From positions 1 to 39,368 of IMG/VR virus record IMGVR_UViG_3300038701_002076: a DNA stretch of 39,368 nt. One strand, given 5' to 3'. Under the pieces are notes generated by a model that searched no databases, had not been told where the DNA came from, and worked only from the letters and a program-made list of their open reading frames with translations. The translations under genes were made by a program, and so were the position numbers. Shown here piece by piece: positions 2,483 to 38,948 of this stretch (the first letter of the stretch is position 1; each line of letters starts with the position of its first letter). This stretch comes from a virus.

Positions 2483-2668
2483 ATGACATACGAACAGGTA
2501 ATTAATCATTTTGGTGGCGTAACCGCTGCGGCCAATGCACTAAACGTGAGCAAATCGGCTGTCTCGCAGTGGCGCAAGGACGGGATAACAATCCCGCGCC
2601 AGTGCCATATCGAGCTTGTGACAGGTGGCGCGCTGAAAGCGGATAAACGCGAGGAACAAGCCGCATGA
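2483..2668 (+). CDS. Cro-like helix-turn-helix protein (YdaS-type)
   Basis: The 61-residue product, MTYEQVINHFGGVTAAANAL..., is typical of small Cro/YdaS antirepressors: a helix, GGVTAAANALNVSKSAVSQW as the helix-turn-helix (residues 11-30), then 'RKDGITIPRQCHIELVTGG'. It is the first gene of the rightward transcript, divergent from the repressor, and likely competes for the same operators to favour lytic growth. No ribosome site precedes the ATG, which lies where transcription is expected to start. Confidence 0.85.
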   Translation: MTYEQVINHFGGVTAAANALNVSKSAVSQWRKDGITIPRQCHIELVTGGALKADKREEQAA

Positions 2669-2757
2669 CCTGGATACTCCTATGGCTGGCAGTTTCATTC
2701 ATCGCGGCCCTGATCGTCGGCAGATTCATTGCTGCCGGTCGTGGTGGGGATGACTGA
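2665..2757 (+). CDS. 30-residue membrane microprotein
   Basis: ATG 2665 overlaps the TGA of the Cro-like gene (ATGA) and is preceded by GAGGAACAAG. The product MTWILLWLAVSFIAALIVGR (first 20 residues) is almost entirely one transmembrane helix, followed by a short Arg/Gly/Asp tail. Its function is unknown. The overlap and ribosome site make translation likely. Confidence 0.5.
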   Translation: MTWILLWLAVSFIAALIVGRFIAAGRGGDD

Positions 2758-2950
2758 CATGGAGCTGTTCTCCCTGATTATCGGCGGCATCACGGGTGCC
2801 GTAATCTGCTTTGTGGTTATAGCCAACAAATTAGATGACCTGAAATTAACCTTGGCTCTTACAAAGTCCAACCTAGCCCAAAGCCAGCGCGATTTAAAAA
2901 AAGCCGAGGGCAAACTGGCCGCAATCCGGCAACTGCTGGACGAGTCCTGA
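2750..2950 (+). CDS. Membrane-anchored coiled-coil protein
   Basis: The 66-residue product has an N-terminal transmembrane helix (about residues 5-26, FSLIIGGITGAVICFVVIAN) followed by a charged coiled coil (LALTKSNLAQSQRDLKKAEG). Start ATG 2750 follows GGTGGGG; ATG 2759 is an alternative. It overlaps the microprotein upstream. The topology resembles small phage membrane proteins of the superinfection-exclusion or spanin type, but no family is recognised. Confidence 0.55.
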   Translation: MTDMELFSLIIGGITGAVICFVVIANKLDDLKLTLALTKSNLAQSQRDLKKAEGKLAAIRQLLDES

Positions 2951-3179
2951 TCAATGGACGGCTGCACGTCATGATTTCGACGTCACGAGAGGCACAAACC
3001 CTGAGTGCTGTGCAGTCGTCCACTTTTTTCCTGGCAACATGGAGGCACCATCCCTTAAACAGCGATCAAAAATTGACGGGAAACGCGCCCCACTCCGGTG
3101 GGGCAACTCCATGCCACGACTCCACGGGCTGGCCGTTTGCCCATCCCCAAAAAAACGGTAACCCCTCCTTTGGTGGCTT

Positions 3180-3206
3180 GCCCGGCACCCCTAGCCGGGC
3201 CTTTTT
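3180..3206 (+). terminator. Rho-independent terminator
   Basis: GCCCGGC and GCCGGGC form a perfect 7-bp GC stem around a 7-nt loop, followed by CTTTTT. It would end the rightward Cro-like transcript. Confidence 0.8.
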
Positions 3207-27777: not shown

Positions 27778-28202
27778 GCACTGATGGCAAAACAATGGCC
27801 GCCGATTCTATGCAGGTAGGTGATTATATCGACCCGCATCCACTGCCGAAGTTGCGTTTTTGCGGGGCAGGGGCGCTGGTTGGCGCGGCGGGTGATTTGG
27901 AAAATGGCGAGCTGTTTCGTCAATGGCTCGGTATTGGCGCGCCCGCTGATGAAAAGCCAAATGTAGGCGACCATTTTCAAGCGCTTGTACTGCGGCCTTC
28001 GGGTGAAGTCATATATTACGGGCCGAAGCTGACGCCGATTGAGGTTGGCGCTCCCGCCGCTATTGGCTCAGGCTCGGTTGCGGCAATGGCCGCTTTAATG
28101 TGCGGCAAGTCTCCGGCGGAGGCTATTGAGATTGCAATCGAGCTTGATGCAAGCTCACGCGGCCCGGTGCGGGTGGTCGATTTAGCCAATGCCAGCCGAT
28201 GA
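27765..28202 (+). CDS. HslV/proteasome-like Ntn-hydrolase peptidase
   Basis: The 145-residue protein starts MTTICTDGKTMAADSMQVGD, closely following the N-terminus of HslV-like peptidases, where Thr after the processed Met is the nucleophile and 'D-G-x-T-x-A-A-D' follows. Later 'CGAGALVGAAGDLENGELFR', 'FQALVLRPSGEVIYY', 'AAIGSGSVAAMAALMCGKSP' and 'AEAIEIAIELD' match the fold's core, including the conserved G-S-G. No ATPase partner gene is nearby. Position next to portal and MuF genes suggests a role in head maturation, perhaps proteolysis of scaffold or of host proteins. Confidence 0.75.
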   Translation: MTTICTDGKTMAADSMQVGDYIDPHPLPKLRFCGAGALVGAAGDLENGELFRQWLGIGAPADEKPNVGDHFQALVLRPSGEVIYYGPKLTPIEVGAPAAIGSGSVAAMAALMCGKSPAEAIEIAIELDASSRGPVRVVDLANASR

Positions 28203-29553
28203 CGCTAGCACCCAAATAGCCGATCACGCCATTACCCGCGCTATATTTCTGGAGCGTTGGGGCGGGCGGATTGCCAGCCGTATGGCTGGGGTGATTGATG
28301 CGGTGCTGGCCGATATTCTCGCAAGATTGCGCCAGGACGATATCAGCACGTTTACCCGCGCCCGGCTGGAAGCGCTGCTGGTCGAGCTGGACACGATAGC
28401 CGAGGGGCTGGATGCGCGGCTGCTGACCGATCTGGAGCCGGAATTGCGCGAGATGGTTGCCGCTGAAATCGCCTCAAACAACGAGGCTATGCTGGCCGCT
28501 GATATTGCCGCCGCTGTGGATAGTTTGACGCCTGAGCAGATTTACGCCGCAGCGCTGGCCGATCCGATGCGTGGCCGATTTCTGTCGGAGTGGTTCGAGT
28601 CGCTGGAGGACAGCCTTAAGCAGAAAGTCCGCGACGCCATCCGCATTGGCTATATCGAAGGCGAAACAACCGACCAGATTGCAGCACACCTACTTGATTT
28701 GGTTGATGCCCGATCAAAACGCGATGCACAGACGATTGTGCGAACTGCGATTACGCATTTTCAAAGTCGCGCGCTGATTGAGGCGTACAAGGGCAGTCCA
28801 GACGTGGCGCAGCAGTACCGCTGGCTCTCGGTGCTCGACTCCAGAACCTGCGTGACAGCAGATACGCCAGTCATGACCCCTGATGGCGAGCGGCCTATTA
28901 TTGATATAGCGGCTGGTGATTGGGTTATCGGTGGTAGCGGCCAACCGCGGCAAGTAACAGCTATTTACGAAGCAGAGGCTTGCGAACTGATCAGAGTCAC
29001 CCTGAGCAACGGCAAGACCGTCACCTGTACCGCGGATCACGATTGGCTGACAAACCGCGGTTGGATAGCGGCGGGACAGTTGATTGAAGGTGAAGAATTG
29101 GCAGGCGGGTGTGCTGTCGCGCAAATCGAGCGCATTCAATCTGCAGATCCTGTGCCGACTTATGACATCACTGTAGCTGAGGATGAATCCTTTATCGTGT
29201 ATGGTGCGGTGCTGCATAACTCCACTATTTGCAGGGCACGCAGCAATCGCGTTTACAAGATCGACCAAGGTCCGTTGCCACCCGCGCATTTCGGGTGCCG
29301 GTCAACGATTACGCCGCTGCTCAAAAATCTGCCGAATCCGGAATTTACCAGCTACAGTGAATGGCTAGAGCGCCAACCGCACACACTGCAGGACGATATT
29401 TTGGGGCCAACACGCGCCAAGCTGTTTCGAGACGGCGGATTGCCGCTGGATAAATTCGTCAACGACCGCAACGGCCATGTCTACACGCTGGAAGAATTGG
29501 CCCGCCGTGAGCGCGAAGCGTGGCGTCGTGCAGGGCTTGACGAGGCTGCATAA
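28189..29553 (+). CDS. MuF-like head morphogenesis protein interrupted by a mini-intein
   Basis: The 454-residue precursor has an N-terminal helical region (about 1-150), then the MuF domain: 'DQIAAHLLDLVDARSKRDAQ', 'TIVRTAITHFQSRALIEAYK', 'RWLSVLDSRT' (ending at residue 220). A 124-residue intein follows (221-344), and the MuF domain resumes with 'STICRARSNRVYKIDQGPLP' and 'PAHFGCRSTITPL'. Without the intein the join reads L-D-S-R-T-S-T-I-C-R-A-R, the expected unbroken MuF signature. The spliced protein would have 330 residues. MuF proteins associate with the portal inside the head and are needed for assembly or ejected with DNA. ATG 28189 overlaps the peptidase gene by 14 nt. Confidence 0.85.
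   Translation: MPADDASTQIADHAITRAIFLERWGGRIASRMAGVIDAVLADILARLRQDDISTFTRARLEALLVELDTIAEGLDARLLTDLEPELREMVAAEIASNNEAMLAADIAAAVDSLTPEQIYAAALADPMRGRFLSEWFESLEDSLKQKVRDAIRIGYIEGETTDQIAAHLLDLVDARSKRDAQTIVRTAITHFQSRALIEAYKGSPDVAQQYRWLSVLDSRTCVTADTPVMTPDGERPIIDIAAGDWVIGGSGQPRQVTAIYEAEACELIRVTLSNGKTVTCTADHDWLTNRGWIAAGQLIEGEELAGGCAVAQIERIQSADPVPTYDITVAEDESFIVYGAVLHNSTICRARSNRVYKIDQGPLPPAHFGCRSTITPLLKNLPNPEFTSYSEWLERQPHTLQDDILGPTRAKLFRDGGLPLDKFVNDRNGHVYTLEELARREREAWRRAGLDEAA
28849..29220 (+). other. 124-residue mini-intein coding segment
   Basis: The segment starts with Cys1 and block A 'CVTADTPVMTPDGERPIIDI', has block B 'TCTADHDWLTNRGWIAAGQL' with T-x-x-H, block F 'VPTYDITVAEDESFIVYG' and block G 'VLHN' followed by Ser+1. 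All four splicing blocks and key residues (Cys1, block-B His, penultimate His, terminal Asn, Ser+1) are present. No homing-endonuclease domain is inserted; the spacing between blocks B and F is minimal. It sits at the most conserved point of the MuF domain, the usual place for inteins. Confidence 0.88.
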
Positions 29554-31662: not shown

Positions 31663-32652
31663 ATGGCATTAAGCAATATGCAGGTGTTTTCGCAATTCGC
31701 GTATTCATCTATGACCGAAACCGTCGCCCAGCAGATCGACTTGTTCAACGCTGCTAGTCGCGGCGCTATTCAACTTCGCCAAGCCGCGAACGTCGGTGAT
31801 TACACCCATGAGGCGATGTTCCAGGAGCTTTCTGGTCTGGTTCGTCGTCGCGACGCCTACGGCAGCGGCAGTGTGAATGCCGTCAGTCTGGCGCAACTTG
31901 ACCATATCGGCGTGAAAGTCGCTGCCGGCACACCGCCGATCAAATACGAGCAGCAGCAGTTTCGCTGGATTCAGCAAAACCCTGATACAGCCGGTACGGT
32001 ATACGGCGAACAGCTTGCGGAGGCCATGATCCAAGATATGGTGAATGCGGCTATTCGTAGCCTAAAAGCGGCGATGGTCGGCAATAAAACCAGTGGCGGT
32101 TATACCGGTGTTCTGTATGAGTCCGTGGCGGCCAATTTAACCCTGAACGCCCTGAACCGGGGCGCGGCGCTATTCGGCGATCGCGCCAATAGTATTCGCA
32201 CCTGGGTCATTCATTCAACACCTATGACCGACCTCGTTGACAACGTGCTAACCAATAGTTCACGGCTGTTTGAGTTCGGCACCGTCAATATTATGGAAGA
32301 CGGGTTTGGTCGTCGGTTTATCGTGACCGACTCTGCCCCGCTGTATCTGGACGGTGGTACCGCACCAGACACTTATTTCACACTGGGGCTGGTTGAAGGT
32401 GCTGCCGTTGTCGAGGACAACGACGATCTGTTTACCAACGACGACACAAGTAATGGTACGGAAAACATCATTACCACCATTCAAAGCGAGTGGACCTACA
32501 ATCTTAAACTTAAAGGCTACCAGTTCAACACTGCCACCAGCGCTGAAAGCCCGACTGATACCGAACTAGGTACTAGTACTAACTGGGTGAAATTTGTCAG
32601 TGACAACAAAAACACGGCAGGCGTTGCTGTGCAGACACTGGGTGGTTCCTGA
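31663..32652 (+). CDS. Major capsid protein
   Basis: The 329-residue product follows the scaffold gene and has the composition of a HK97-fold capsid subunit. Recognisable segments are 'TETVAQQIDLFNAASRGAIQ' near the N-terminus, 'GDYTHEAMFQELSGLVRRRD', 'YGEQLAEAMIQDMVNAAIRS' and 'RTWVIHSTPMTDLVDNVLTN' in the core, and 'FGRRFIVTDSAPLYLDGG' towards the end. This pattern matches phage major capsid proteins of the portal-DUF4055/MuF type. GGAG lies 9 nt before the ATG. It forms the icosahedral shell. Confidence 0.82.
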   Translation: MALSNMQVFSQFAYSSMTETVAQQIDLFNAASRGAIQLRQAANVGDYTHEAMFQELSGLVRRRDAYGSGSVNAVSLAQLDHIGVKVAAGTPPIKYEQQQFRWIQQNPDTAGTVYGEQLAEAMIQDMVNAAIRSLKAAMVGNKTSGGYTGVLYESVAANLTLNALNRGAALFGDRANSIRTWVIHSTPMTDLVDNVLTNSSRLFEFGTVNIMEDGFGRRFIVTDSAPLYLDGGTAPDTYFTLGLVEGAAVVEDNDDLFTNDDTSNGTENIITTIQSEWTYNLKLKGYQFNTATSAESPTDTELGTSTNWVKFVSDNKNTAGVAVQTLGGS

Positions 32653-32669: not shown

Positions 32670-33068
32670 ATGCAAGGCAAAGACAGAACCATTTATTTTT
32701 ACCGTAACTCACCGCGACCCGAGGACATCCGCAAGCGGGATGAATTGGGCGCGGTATTTCTGGATGCCGCCGCTTGGTCTCCCGGTGACCCGATAAAGTC
32801 GAACGTCACCGCCGTTGCCGGGTACGTCCCGCCAGGCTATCAGCATCTGCCGAGGGCGGATGCGGTAGTCGCCCCAAAGGAATCAGCCCCGGCACCTGGT
32901 GCGGAGACATCGCTGTCTGCCTCGCGTCGGGGCCGTCGCTCCACCCGGACGACATCGCGGAGATCGACCATTGCCGCACCGACTGCACCAGTCCCGGCAG
33001 CAGAGCCGGAATCCGCTGCATCTACGTTAACAGCAGCATCCGACGAGCCAACTACCGAGCCGACCTAG
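32670..33068 (+). CDS. Small head protein with disordered tail; probable upstream partner of a -1 frameshift
   Basis: The 132-residue product has a conserved-looking N-terminal domain (about 1-62: MQGKDRTIYFYRNSPRPEDI, 'RKRDELGAVFLDAAAWSPGD', 'VAGYVPPGYQHLP') and a low-complexity Ser/Thr/Arg/Pro/Ala tail (70-132). Its place directly after the capsid gene suggests a head accessory protein. At codons 69-70 lies the slippery heptamer C-CCA-AAG; a -1 shift there would join residues 1-70 to the 203-residue domain encoded in the overlapping frame (32879-33490), giving a 273-residue fusion. The zero-frame tail and the other domain share about 190 nt. Confidence 0.65.
   Translation: MQGKDRTIYFYRNSPRPEDIRKRDELGAVFLDAAAWSPGDPIKSNVTAVAGYVPPGYQHLPRADAVVAPKESAPAPGAETSLSASRRGRRSTRTTSRRSTIAAPTAPVPAAEPESAASTLTAASDEPTTEPT
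32873..32904 (+). promoter_or_regulatory. Candidate programmed -1 ribosomal frameshift signal
   Basis: The heptamer CCCAAAG (32873-32879) is in register as X-XXY-YYZ with zero-frame codons CCA and AAG. Nine nt later comes a stem-loop (32889-32904): CCG plus CAC pair with GTG plus CGG around a CTG loop, with one bulged G. Spacing and structure fit known bacterial and phage -1 frameshift sites. Confidence 0.6.
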
Positions 33069-33490
33069 GCGTATGGCCGGATGCCTGTTTTGCTGCCGAC
33101 CCCGATTGGTGGTGGTATGAGGGGTGCCACGTACCGCCCGAGACTGCCCAATGGACATCATCGCAAGCGGCTGCCGGGGCGCTGGGGCTGCATTGGTTGC
33201 CGGGCGTATCGGCGGCGATCAATAGCGGCGCGGGCGCTATCCTGCTGGCGCAATACCTGGGGGCGTCGAACGTAATTTTGCTGGGCTATGACTGCCAGCG
33301 CACTAACGGTGAGTCCCATTGGCATGGCGATCATCAGCAGCCGTTATCGCAATCTCTGCGGTTCTACGTATGGCGGCAGCAATTCGCTGCTATCGCCAAG
33401 AAACACAGCAACATTATTAACTGTAGTCGGGAGACGGCATTGACCTGTTTCCCGCGTAGGAGTCTGGCCGATGGCCTATGCTACACCTAG
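32879..33490 (+). CDS. DUF115-like sugar-transferase-type domain with no usual start codon, -1 frame
   Basis: This frame is open from 32789 to the TAG at 33490. The domain starts at once with 'WCGDIAVCLASGPSLHPDDI' and continues 'IRCIYVNSSIRRANYRADLG', 'VWPDACFAADPDWWWYEG', 'VILLGYDCQRTNGESHWHGD' and 'SNIINCSRETALTCF'. It is a paralogue of 34811-35386, sharing C-I/L-A-S/T-G-P-S-L, L-L-G-Y-D-C-Q and I-I-N-C-S-R-E-T-A. No ATG, GTG or TTG occurs in frame before the domain; the first TTG (33197) would remove its N-terminal half. It is most likely made as a -1 frameshift fusion with the gene at 32670. Start coordinate given is the first codon after the slip. A frame-disrupted relic is the alternative. 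Confidence 0.6.
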   Translation, partial: GISPGTWCGDIAVCLASGPSLHPDDIAEIDHCRTDCTSPGSRAGIRCIYVNSSIRRANYRADLGVWPDACFAADPDWWWYEGCHVPPETAQWTSSQAAAGALGLHWLPGVSAAINSGAGAILLAQYLGASNVILLGYDCQRTNGESHWHGDHQQPLSQSLRFYVWRQQFAAIAKKHSNIINCSRETALTCFPRRSLADGLCYT

Positions 33491-34375: not shown

Positions 34376-34821
34376 TGCCGACGAACTACTTTGCCGCCGG
34401 CGAGGCCATTGCCACGCAGATCAATACCACGGTTTCGGATTTTGCCTATGTCGGGCCGCTGAACGTCGAGCAGGACGTATTCAGTCAAGGCGCCCGATTG
34501 CCCGCGTGTTTTATCCGGCTGGCCTCAAACAATCCACCGGACCGACCGAGCGCTGACCTGCAATGGACGCAGGATTGGGATATTGTCATTGTCTGCCGCA
34601 ATCCTGCCGACGGGCGCGGCGGTTGGCGCGGCTTCAACGAAGCGGGCGCGTTGCTGTATAGCGTTGCCGAGACCGCACTGGCCGATTTCAGGCCCGCAAC
34701 CGGGTTTTCGCGGCTGGAGTTCGTGGATTCCCCGTTTGAAACCGTGAACCGGCCCGGCGGGTATCTGGCAGCATTTCTGCGCGTTAGAACCAAATTCGAC
34801 AGCGGCATAGATGACGAATAA
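34375..34821 (+). CDS. gp37-like tail terminator or joining protein (DUF1834-type)
   Basis: The 148-residue product follows the gp36-gpG order and matches the size and pattern of gp37-type proteins: 'FAAGEAIATQINTTVSDFAY', 'LPACFIRLASNNPP', 'WTQDWDIVIVCRNPADGRGG' and 'GALLYSVAETALADFRPATG'. Such proteins cap the tail tube, indicating a long-tailed phage. The ribosome site region is AT-rich. It overlaps the next gene by 11 nt. Confidence 0.68.
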   Translation: MPTNYFAAGEAIATQINTTVSDFAYVGPLNVEQDVFSQGARLPACFIRLASNNPPDRPSADLQWTQDWDIVIVCRNPADGRGGWRGFNEAGALLYSVAETALADFRPATGFSRLEFVDSPFETVNRPGGYLAAFLRVRTKFDSGIDDE

Positions 34822-35386
34822 CCCGGTCATCTGTATCGCCACCGGCCCCAGCCTGACCCTGGCTGATGTGAACTACGTCAAGGGCAAACTGCCGGTTATC
34901 ACCATTAACAACGCCTGCCATCTGGCGCCGTGGGCAGATTATCACTATGCCTGCGATCTAAAATGGTGGCGCGCCTATGTTGACACAATAGGCGCGGGGC
35001 AGTGCTGGACAATTGACAAGCGAGCGGCCAAAGAATTCGAATTGAATTTACTTAAACATAAAGGCCTTGGCACCGGTTTATGCACCGCGCCCGGCTATAT
35101 TTATCATGGTGGCAATAGCGGCTATCAGGCTATCGGACTGGCGTATGTGCTGGGCTATAATCCGATTTATTTGCTGGGCTATGACTGCCAAGCCACTAGC
35201 GGTAAAAAACATTACCATCCAGACCACCCTGGTCGGCTGGACTGCCCCCATAATTATCGCCGCTGGCGACGACGTTTTAATGCCTTGGCACGAGATGCTA
35301 AGCAGGCCGGCTTGGAAATCATCAACTGCAGCCGAGAAACGGCAATTGCCGACATACCGAGAGCGAATCTATGCGACGTGCTGTAA
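34811..35386 (+). CDS. DUF115-like sugar-transferase-type protein
   Basis: The 191-residue product shows the pattern 'VICIATGPSLTLADVNYVKG', 'VITINNACHLAPWADYHYAC', 'DLKWWRAYV', 'IYHGGNSGYQAIGLAYVLGY', 'IYLLGYDCQATSGKKHYHPD' and 'LEIINCSRETAIADIP'. The G-P-S-L and G-Y-D motifs resemble DUF115/MptE-like and bacterial motility-associated glycosyl-transfer proteins; the chemistry is unproven. It is a complete paralogue of the start-less domain at 32879-33490 and opens the carbohydrate-like cassette. Confidence 0.65.
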   Translation: MTNNPVICIATGPSLTLADVNYVKGKLPVITINNACHLAPWADYHYACDLKWWRAYVDTIGAGQCWTIDKRAAKEFELNLLKHKGLGTGLCTAPGYIYHGGNSGYQAIGLAYVLGYNPIYLLGYDCQATSGKKHYHPDHPGRLDCPHNYRRWRRRFNALARDAKQAGLEIINCSRETAIADIPRANLCDVL

Positions 35387-36144
35387 TTGCACTCCTACGT
35401 AATGATCCCAAATTTGCACACCCTGAGCTGATCTACGGGCTGGAGAAACGCCGTTTCAAAGTGGTCGACCGGCCTGTTATGGATCTGACTCGCGATGATG
35501 TGCTGGTGGTCTGGAACCGGCAGAGTCGCACTGCAGCACTCTGTGCGGCGGCTGAACGTGCCGAGGCGCGGATTATCGTGATCGAAAATGGTTACTTCGG
35601 GCGTGAATGGCGCGGCGGGCGCTGGTATGCGTTGAGCCTGGAGCATCACTACACCACCCCGATTCGCCATCTACCGGAGCGCTGGCCATTGTTCGGCGTG
35701 GATCTGAAACCGTGGCAACCGGTGCAGGTTAACCGGGTGCTGCTGCTGCCTCAGCGGGGTATCGGTGAGCCGGGTATCGGCATGCCGCAAGGCTGGGCGC
35801 AAAAGGCGTGGCGCTATTTCGATGAGCGCGGTTGGGCAACCGACGAGCGCGGTCATCCCGGCGCGGTTGGGCAGACTGCTGCGGATGATTTAGAAGACGC
35901 CATTCGTGGGTATTACGCGGTGGCGACCTGGGCCAGCAGTGCCGGTATTAAAGCGCTGGTTGAAGGGGTGCCGGTGATTAACTGGTATCCCGATTGGCTG
36001 ATGCGCGCTGGTTGCGTCCCGTTCGACAGATGGGACGGCGGCACGCGACCCAAAACCGACCGGCTACCGGCGTTTGAGCGCATGGCAGGGGGCTTGTGGT
36101 CGGCTGCTGAAATTGCCAGCGGCGAGCCATTTGACGAACTATAG
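35371..36144 (+). CDS. Glycosyltransferase-like protein (capsule-synthesis type, tentative)
   Basis: The 257-residue product has two alternating alpha/beta halves: an N-terminal half 'VIALLRNDPKFAHPELIYGL' to 'ARIIVIENGYFGREWRGGRW' and a C-terminal half with 'GYYAVATWASSAGIKALVEG' then 'VPVINWYPDWLMRAG'. The last motif (W-A/N-S-S/T-x-G-x-x-A-L-x-x-G-V-P-V-I) is the nucleotide-sugar side signature found in KpsS/KpsC-type capsule transferases. A GT-B-like enzyme is likely. The acceptor is unknown. Confidence 0.55.
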   Translation: MRRAVIALLRNDPKFAHPELIYGLEKRRFKVVDRPVMDLTRDDVLVVWNRQSRTAALCAAAERAEARIIVIENGYFGREWRGGRWYALSLEHHYTTPIRHLPERWPLFGVDLKPWQPVQVNRVLLLPQRGIGEPGIGMPQGWAQKAWRYFDERGWATDERGHPGAVGQTAADDLEDAIRGYYAVATWASSAGIKALVEGVPVINWYPDWLMRAGCVPFDRWDGGTRPKTDRLPAFERMAGGLWSAAEIASGEPFDEL

Positions 36145-37837: not shown

Positions 37838-38301
37838 CCGACGACCGCTACGCCGAGCTGCGAGAGCAGAAGAAGGTTGAGCAGCTTATTCGCAGCTACC
37901 GCGAACAGCTTGCGGTCGGTAGCTGGGTGGACATGCTGTGGCAGTTGCGCTATGTGTCCAAAGATTGCCCGCACATTGACCCCGGTGATTGCCAAGCGTT
38001 TTTTGATTGGATTCATGACCGTGAATATGCCCTGGATATCGGCGGCGGCAGAGCACCACAGCTACGGCACACCAACAGCACTTTAGAGATCGTTGCCCGC
38101 AACGCCAACCAGCTCACCGCGATGATGCCCAGCCGACACCGCAAAGAGCGCCGACCCCGCACCACCGACAGCCACCCGATCTTCGTGCGGCATGGCGACC
38201 GGTACGTACTGATCGACGGGCGACGGCGCGTGAATACGTTTATCACGTCCTGCCCTGATCAAAAACTCCCGATCTATCTGATAACACCAAATATTGCATG
38301 A
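37816..38301 (+). CDS. ParB-like nuclease-domain protein
   Basis: The 161-residue product has a helical N-terminal half and a C-terminal half reading 'TLEIVARNANQLTAMMPSRH', 'SHPIFVRHGDRYVLIDGRRR' then 'VNTFITSC' and 'KLPIYLI'. 'D-G-R-R-R' corresponds to the G-x-x-R box of ParB/Srx-fold proteins, which bind CTP or ATP. In phages, genes of this type often sit next to methyltransferase and glycosyltransferase genes. It may act as a nucleotide-dependent switch or kinase. Confidence 0.55.
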   Translation: MVGDTDLTDDRYAELREQKKVEQLIRSYREQLAVGSWVDMLWQLRYVSKDCPHIDPGDCQAFFDWIHDREYALDIGGGRAPQLRHTNSTLEIVARNANQLTAMMPSRHRKERRPRTTDSHPIFVRHGDRYVLIDGRRRVNTFITSCPDQKLPIYLITPNIA

Positions 38302-38948
38302 AATATAAACACGGGATTGCATTTCCTGATATGGATAATTACCTGTATGACCGGCTGCCAGAATCCGGCATCTGGCAACAGGACGCGCTAGAGGCTGGGC
38401 TGATGTACGTGCAGCAGTGGCGTACCGCTATCGATGGCGGCGCACATGTCGGCACCTGGTCCAGACAACTGGCGCCCCAGTTCAGCCGGGTGATTGCGTT
38501 CGAGCCAGCCGCCGATACGTTCCAGTGCCTGATCGAAAACACATTGCCGCTGGGCGTTGAATGTCATCAGCAGGCGCTTGGCGCGACGCCGGGTATTGTC
38601 ACGATCCAGCGCGATCTGCGTGATATGCAGCGACGGCATACCGGGGCACGGTACTGTGTAGGCAGCGATGCCAAAGACCCTGACGCGGTGCGGCGGGTAA
38701 CAATTGATAGCCTGGAATTGCAGGATCTGGATTTTTTGAAGCTGGACCTTGAGGGCGGCGAACCGGACGCGCTCAAGGGCGCACTGGAAACCCTGCAGCG
38801 TTGCCGGCCTGTCGTGGTCTTCGAGCGCGGTAAATTTTGCTGCCGGTACTGCTACGAGAAAAACGCCAGCGAGAAAATACTGGAACGCATCGGCGCAAAA
38901 CCGCTGGCCGATCTGGGTTTAAATCTGGTTTGGGGGTGGGATGGCTGA
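38298..38948 (+). CDS. FkbM-type SAM methyltransferase
   Basis: The 216-residue product has motif I-like 'TAIDGGAHVGTWSRQLAPQF' (about 43-62), 'VIAFEPAADTFQCLIENT' (FEP, motif II of FkbM proteins), 'VTIDSLELQDLDFLKLDLEG' and 'GEPDALKGALETLQRCRPVV' then 'VFERG'. D-F-L-K-L-D-L-E-G is the hallmark of FkbM methyltransferases, which O-methylate sugars and secondary metabolites. This supports the view that the cassette makes or decorates a glycan. ATGA overlap with the previous gene. Confidence 0.85.
   Translation: MKYKHGIAFPDMDNYLYDRLPESGIWQQDALEAGLMYVQQWRTAIDGGAHVGTWSRQLAPQFSRVIAFEPAADTFQCLIENTLPLGVECHQQALGATPGIVTIQRDLRDMQRRHTGARYCVGSDAKDPDAVRRVTIDSLELQDLDFLKLDLEGGEPDALKGALETLQRCRPVVVFERGKFCCRYCYEKNASEKILERIGAKPLADLGLNLVWGWDG

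Follow-up and report, generated by a model that had tools for sequence, protein, structure and literature searches.

How is a protein domain expressed when its reading frame offers no start codon? The question is raised by the IMG/VR virus record IMGVR_UViG_3300038701_002076, a viral contig of 39,368 bases that was analysed over its whole length (hereafter, the window). Behind its capsid gene a small ORF is overlapped, in the -1 frame, by an enzyme-like domain, and a sequence-only reading of the locus had proposed that a -1 frameshift fuses the two. The features concerned are the following.

31663..32652, + strand: major capsid protein, Gp13-like (PF20036, Pfam E-value 5.5e-111), directly 5' of the small-protein ORF
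32670..33068, + strand: small post-capsid protein in frame 0, 132 aa, the unshifted product of an ORF with ATG
32852..32856, + strand: SD-like GAGGG, a putative upstream stimulator, ending 16 nt 5' of the slippery site (anti-SD duplex -6.4 kcal/mol)
32873..32879, + strand: slippery heptamer C_CCA_AAG, as read in the sequence
32886..32933, + strand: downstream stem-loop after a 6-nt spacer (ViennaRNA -25.8 kcal/mol), outer 8-bp stem GCCCCGGC/GUCGGGGC
32879..33490, + strand: start-less -1-frame domain, 203 aa, PHROG 4603, with a Maf/MptE/GT42-like fold (profile match and predicted structure)
32670-32879 joined to 32879-33490, + strand: predicted fusion, 273 aa, the sole predicted form of the start-less domain
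32880..33068, + strand: dual-coded stretch, in which the frame-0 C-terminal tail lies over the start of the -1 domain

The start-less domain and its homologues

The open -1 frame spans 32789 to 33490 and, as the sequence-only reading stated, has no ATG, GTG or TTG (nor CTG) ahead of the GPSL motif; the earliest such codons, CTG at 33182 and TTG at 33197, both lie deep inside the domain. The domain is also intact from its first residues, as had been claimed: the AlphaFold model is ordered from its start (pLDDT 86.8, pTM 0.87), and the domain matches PHROG 4603 (E-value 2e-37) over profile positions 2-174 of 178. The earlier label “DUF115-like” holds at the level of the fold and fails at the level of the family, the score against Pfam PF01973 being 15 bits against a cut-off of 34.6. 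The best solved matches to the fold, found with VIA-align, were the Maf flagellin glycosyltransferase (5mu5, Z 14.7), an MptE-type HPPK (12.4) and the CstII sialyltransferase (11.5), with SteA also among them; the superpositions on Maf 5mu5 and CstII span 173-174 residues. Foldseek alone gave no match in the PDB at E <= 1e-3 for the window domain, so that the fold assignment rests on VIA-align, and a sequence search of the PDB with the domain was empty.

Relatives of the domain were found by tblastn in phages, including D3, PMG1, Psp6, P1 and PAJU2. Single-sequence searches of IMG/VR with the window domain and with the window small protein returned no close relatives; alignment-based IMG/VR searches did recover relatives of the domain, and three such scans plus one genome scan (the latter with two loci only) yielded 98 domain clusters. 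In about 82 non-redundant clusters, comprising D3, IMG/VR contigs and a Pandoraea contig, a small ORF carries the start-less domain in its -1 frame, in most cases after an HK97 capsid gene; D3 and Psp6 have this arrangement, and the directly upstream gene was an HK97-type capsid gene in 10 of the 10 loci tested. This post-capsid start-less set has, by construction, no -1-frame ATG within 30 codons of the domain, and in most of its members the whole stretch back to the -1 stop is free of ATG, GTG and TTG. About a dozen homologues stand alone with their own ATG, mostly without the CCC described below and without excess structure. The frameshift proposal stood up in these relatives: comparison shows that the lack of start codons, the frame order, the slippery site and the downstream stem are kept across dozens of divergent phages, as is the upkeep of both frames. 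None of six relatives by capsid has the domain adjoining the capsid gene in the sequence available, which for one of them ends right after that gene.

Several neighbouring features were observed. Another PHROG 4603 paralogue in the window, which the sequence-only reading did not mention, is intact and starts at an ATG (34811-35386); after it come a weakly Capsule_synth-like ORF (35371-36144) and, farther 3', an FkbM methyltransferase (38298-38948); these three are possible glycan genes among the tail genes. The two copies in the window recall L027, in which the start-less domain (2634-3197) is followed at once by a stand-alone ATG copy from 3197. In L015 (3077-4591) and L030 (3959-5461) the -1 frame extends over about 500 codons, and thus the shifted product would hold more than the transferase-like domain. 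A 275-aa gene and a methyltransferase lie beside the domain in D3, PAJU2, Psp6 and Mulvp2 (L003, L004, L007 and L008); this glycan cassette was considered as a general partner and rejected, as the pair accompanies just 17 of 63 start-less loci and does not occur in the window. Elsewhere in the window, a Mu F-like head protein (28189-29553) matches a PT-HINT/intein-type domain (Pfam E-values 1e-9 and 7e-7), and by these matches bears a predicted self-splicing or pretoxin-type part.

The slippery site and its putative stimulators

The heptamer CCCAAAG lies in the X_XXY_YYZ register (GCC CCA AAG), and a shift there joins 70 to 203 residues, both as originally read. It occurs three times in the window (4.7 expected); the heptamer alone is common, and what counts is therefore where it stands and in which register. 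In E. coli, C_CCA_AAG is reported to be highly shift-prone (PMC5009743). The same heptamer in the same register is found in D3 and five more clusters; the window falls outside the D3 clade on the domain tree, in which many forks are weak. On the same weakly supported tree the slippery classes switch many times, with 12 changes for CCCTTT.

Across the family the main conserved element is a single proline codon. The -1 codon CCC stands exactly five codons 5' of a conserved Trp in 69 of the 76 clusters that have the Trp, and the proline at the slip place is always encoded by CCC in the -1 frame, compared with 24% of the proline codons of the domain. The frame-0 proline codon at the site (n = 70) is CCT in 42 cases, CCC in 21, CCA in 7 and CCG in none, against an expectation, taken from the upstream capsid ORF, of 55% CCG. 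With CCC fixed and CCG excluded, the constraint acts on nucleotides and not on amino acids, and the CCC rule fits a re-pairing of a tRNA-Pro able to read CCC. In L108, L115 and L127 a -1-frame TGA stands directly 5' of the CCC, so that there the shift must occur at or after CCC. In more than half of the clusters the proline codon can re-pair but its neighbour cannot; these sites are therefore not textbook heptamers. Other lineages have A_AAA_AAG (L129), G_GGA_AAA (L223, L225) or A_AAT_TTC (L116, L130) near the same place, and Psp6 (L007, 2440-2520), with the same architecture, has no CCC, canonical heptamer or strong stem.

The stem-loop of the sequence-only reading is present, with a spacer of 6 nt according to ViennaRNA instead of the 9 nt first given. 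Its z-score is -2.0 in a 51-nt folding window but -0.3 in a 90-nt one, and its energy is in the lowest 3% of nearby folding windows; its pairing differs from that of the family stem, which occupies about the same position, and it is only modestly unusual. The D3 stem is no stronger than that of shuffled sequences. Because dinucleotide z-scores of single stems are weak, family-wide and codon-preserving tests were used. The mean folding energy of the family, computed in 45-nt folding windows, drops deeply at one point only, +6 nt from CCC (-20.5 vs. about -11.5 elsewhere; residual -6.3 +- 0.43). The family stem pairs GGC CGC TGG CGA with TC GCC AGC GGC C, that is, the GRWR codons with the IASGP codons; the idea that the Trp is conserved for the protein alone was dropped, its codon being also part of the stem. 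In the start-less class the stem is stronger than a synonymous-codon null (mean z -1.44), whereas 11 stand-alone homologues gave a mean z of +0.24 in the same test (Mann-Whitney P 2.6e-5 for the class difference; the clusters are not independent, and count-based P values are therefore too small). The two stem arms match better within than between clusters, none of 2000 arm permutations scoring as high, with relatedness left in. Upstream, anti-SD pairing in the family has a mean peak of -3.6 for 8-mers ending 10 nt 5' of CCC and is not strong in all members. Such an SD-like element is common in bacterial -1 frameshift signals without being obligatory; the GAGGG of the window had gone unmentioned in the sequence-only reading.

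Predicted products of the gene and alternative explanations

Frame 0 remains open for at least 25 codons past the domain Cys codon in 82 of 82 clusters, compared with a mean of 14 codons when the -1 protein is recoded at random. As it is open past the site in all homologues, both products seem to be maintained. The frame-0 tail is basic (mean net charge +3.8 over the last 15 residues); the recoded null yields about the same charge, and so the charge itself may be a by-product. The usual small protein is folded over residues 1-41, followed by a disordered tail, with the slip-site proline at residue 47. Its model (from L100) superposes on the C-terminal domain of lambda gpFI (1.2 A across 41 residues, Z 5.7), but unrelated tiny folds match equally well, and a sequence search of the PDB with the small protein gave no match. 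Lambda gpFI is a small protein whose gene is close behind the capsid gene; it is an assembly factor, and its C-terminal domain is the head-binding domain. The usual small protein, likewise encoded close behind the capsid gene, weakly resembles this domain; the small protein of the window is from another family. The latter has a weak counterpart among the post-capsid proteins of its capsid relatives (motif FxxxxxP...VAGxxPxxY, 15-23% identity). In two of six capsid relatives (the Gp13-capsid phages L226, 1151-1672, and L227, 5048-5569) a Big_2 Ig-like domain is present in frame within the post-capsid protein of this family, suggesting that this head protein is accessory and modular.

The comparisons support the predicted -1 fusion of the start-less domain to the small post-capsid protein. 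We put at about 0.9 the probability that, in the window, the gene behind the capsid gene yields two proteins through a conserved programmed -1 frameshift; for the domain family as a whole such a frameshift appears nearly certain, and our confidence is lower for the window because its relatives are distant. Most ribosomes would presumably complete the short frame-0 product, in which a small folded domain is followed by a disordered tail, basic in most cases. Some, detained by the stem 3' of the site and by the SD-like element 5' of it, would slip back one base at C_CCN (in the window, at C_CCA_AAG), the proline tRNA re-pairing with CCC in the family, and would enter the -1 frame, so that the tail is exchanged for the Maf/GT42/MptE-like transferase domain.

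Other routes to the same arrangement were weighed. A separate gene with a non-standard start codon might be read from an ATC at 32882 in the window or, in D3-like phages, from a single GTG or TTG 18 codons 5' of the domain Cys, and the D3 record begins orf7 at an ATC codon (locus position 2627). Annotation of D3 and Psp6 places the domain start inside the domain or at odd codons, and in three further D3-like records the annotated protein starts 60 codons into the domain, beyond the GPSL motif. However, no candidate start is common to the clusters, L108, L115 and L127 have no ATG, GTG, TTG, CTG or ATH between the -1 stop and the Cys, and a separate gene, which we consider very unlikely, would leave the CCC, the exclusion of CCG, the stem and the open frame 0 unexplained. 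Slippage of RNA polymerase on the transcript would result in the same fusion; yet most members have no long A/T run at the site, and a stem near +6 and an SD-like element fit ribosomes, which makes this route very unlikely indeed. It is extremely improbable that a sequencing error or gene decay has detached a domain that was formerly part of an in-frame fusion or had a start codon to itself. The window is a single contig and its domain sits on a long branch, but about 82 clusters share the same architecture, as do isolated phages, D3 and PMG1 among them, and the window domain keeps all residues invariant in the 24-row alignment and gives a confidently folded model; an error of sequencing is excluded by the many independent cases.

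As to what the fusion does, in the most likely case the small domain would tether a sub-stoichiometric amount of the enzyme to the capsid or procapsid, and the enzyme, presumed to be catalytic, would modify the virion or travel with it. In the boldest reading, somewhat less likely than not, a widespread and so far overlooked C_CCN frameshift, with CCG excluded and a stem about 6 nt from CCC, would tether an enzyme of nonulosonate- or sugar-transferase type to the capsid, so that these phages glycosylate their own heads or carry the enzyme; the module would have moved between at least two families of capsid and small protein. A competing account accepts the frameshift and contests solely the virion part: the fusion could be an assembly-time product or a procapsid-bound enzyme lost before maturation, which we consider a real possibility, somewhat short of an even chance. 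The assembly role of gpFI, to whose fold the usual small domain may be related, points in that direction. So do the absence of lambda gpG/gpGT from mature virions (PMC5009743) and the glycosylation of mycobacteriophage capsids by the phages' own glycosyltransferases (PMC12363180). On the other side, the PAJU2 and Eowyn records label stand-alone homologues “structural protein”, although these are labels only. No enzymatic activity of this phage family was reported in the literature searched; the stand-alone P1 homologue pmgO is non-essential (PMC10695390), and the enzyme may thus be an accessory function. Taken together, the folds of the domain and of the usual small protein, the Ig-like modules and the mycobacteriophage precedent make capsid-tethered modification our first guess for function, a little short of an even bet.

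Comparison with known systems and biological meaning

The analogy drawn earlier with frameshifted virion proteins is apt. Ig-like domains are appended by frameshifting to the coat proteins of T3 and A2 and to the SPP1 tail protein, and the carbohydrate-binding TpeX extensions to the tails of lactococcal 936 phages (PMC5009743, PMC6669499). In all of these, and by prediction in the present case, the frameshift adds an accessory domain to part of an abundant structural protein; here the base is a small post-capsid protein, a candidate virion component, and the added domain has a transferase fold instead of being Ig-like or carbohydrate-binding. E. coli dnaX combines an upstream SD-like element, a slippery site and a downstream hairpin (PMC3711429), an order repeated in the window, and, as in lambda G-T, two overlapping frames of a phage morphogenesis gene are predicted to be fused by a -1 shift. 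Unlike in dnaX and lambda G-T, conservation centres here on one isolated proline codon, C_CCN with CCG excluded, both arms of the stem fall within the coding sequence of the added domain, and that domain is encoded in full by the -1 frame. The domain is of the same protein family as PHROG 4603, “alpha-2,3-sialyltransferase” (P1 PmgO, PAJU2 ORF010), and has the fold of the Maf and GT42 enzymes; in contrast to the start-less domain of the window, those of P1 and PAJU2 begin at an ATG and are not directly behind a capsid gene in the annotated stretches inspected. No published description of this case was found in the literature searched, which covered few subscription papers.

The finding exposes, in familiar phages of which D3 is one, a gene that had been overlooked: in the records inspected its domain is missed or truncated. 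Enzyme-like domains would thereby join the set of parts that phage structural proteins acquire through frameshifting. With their roughly 80 natural sites, the homologues allow -1 slippage at one proline codon to be studied, and as CCG is so strikingly missing from them, the rule for the tRNA can be put directly to the test. A fusion on the capsid, if there is one, would point to phage heads being modified enzymatically.
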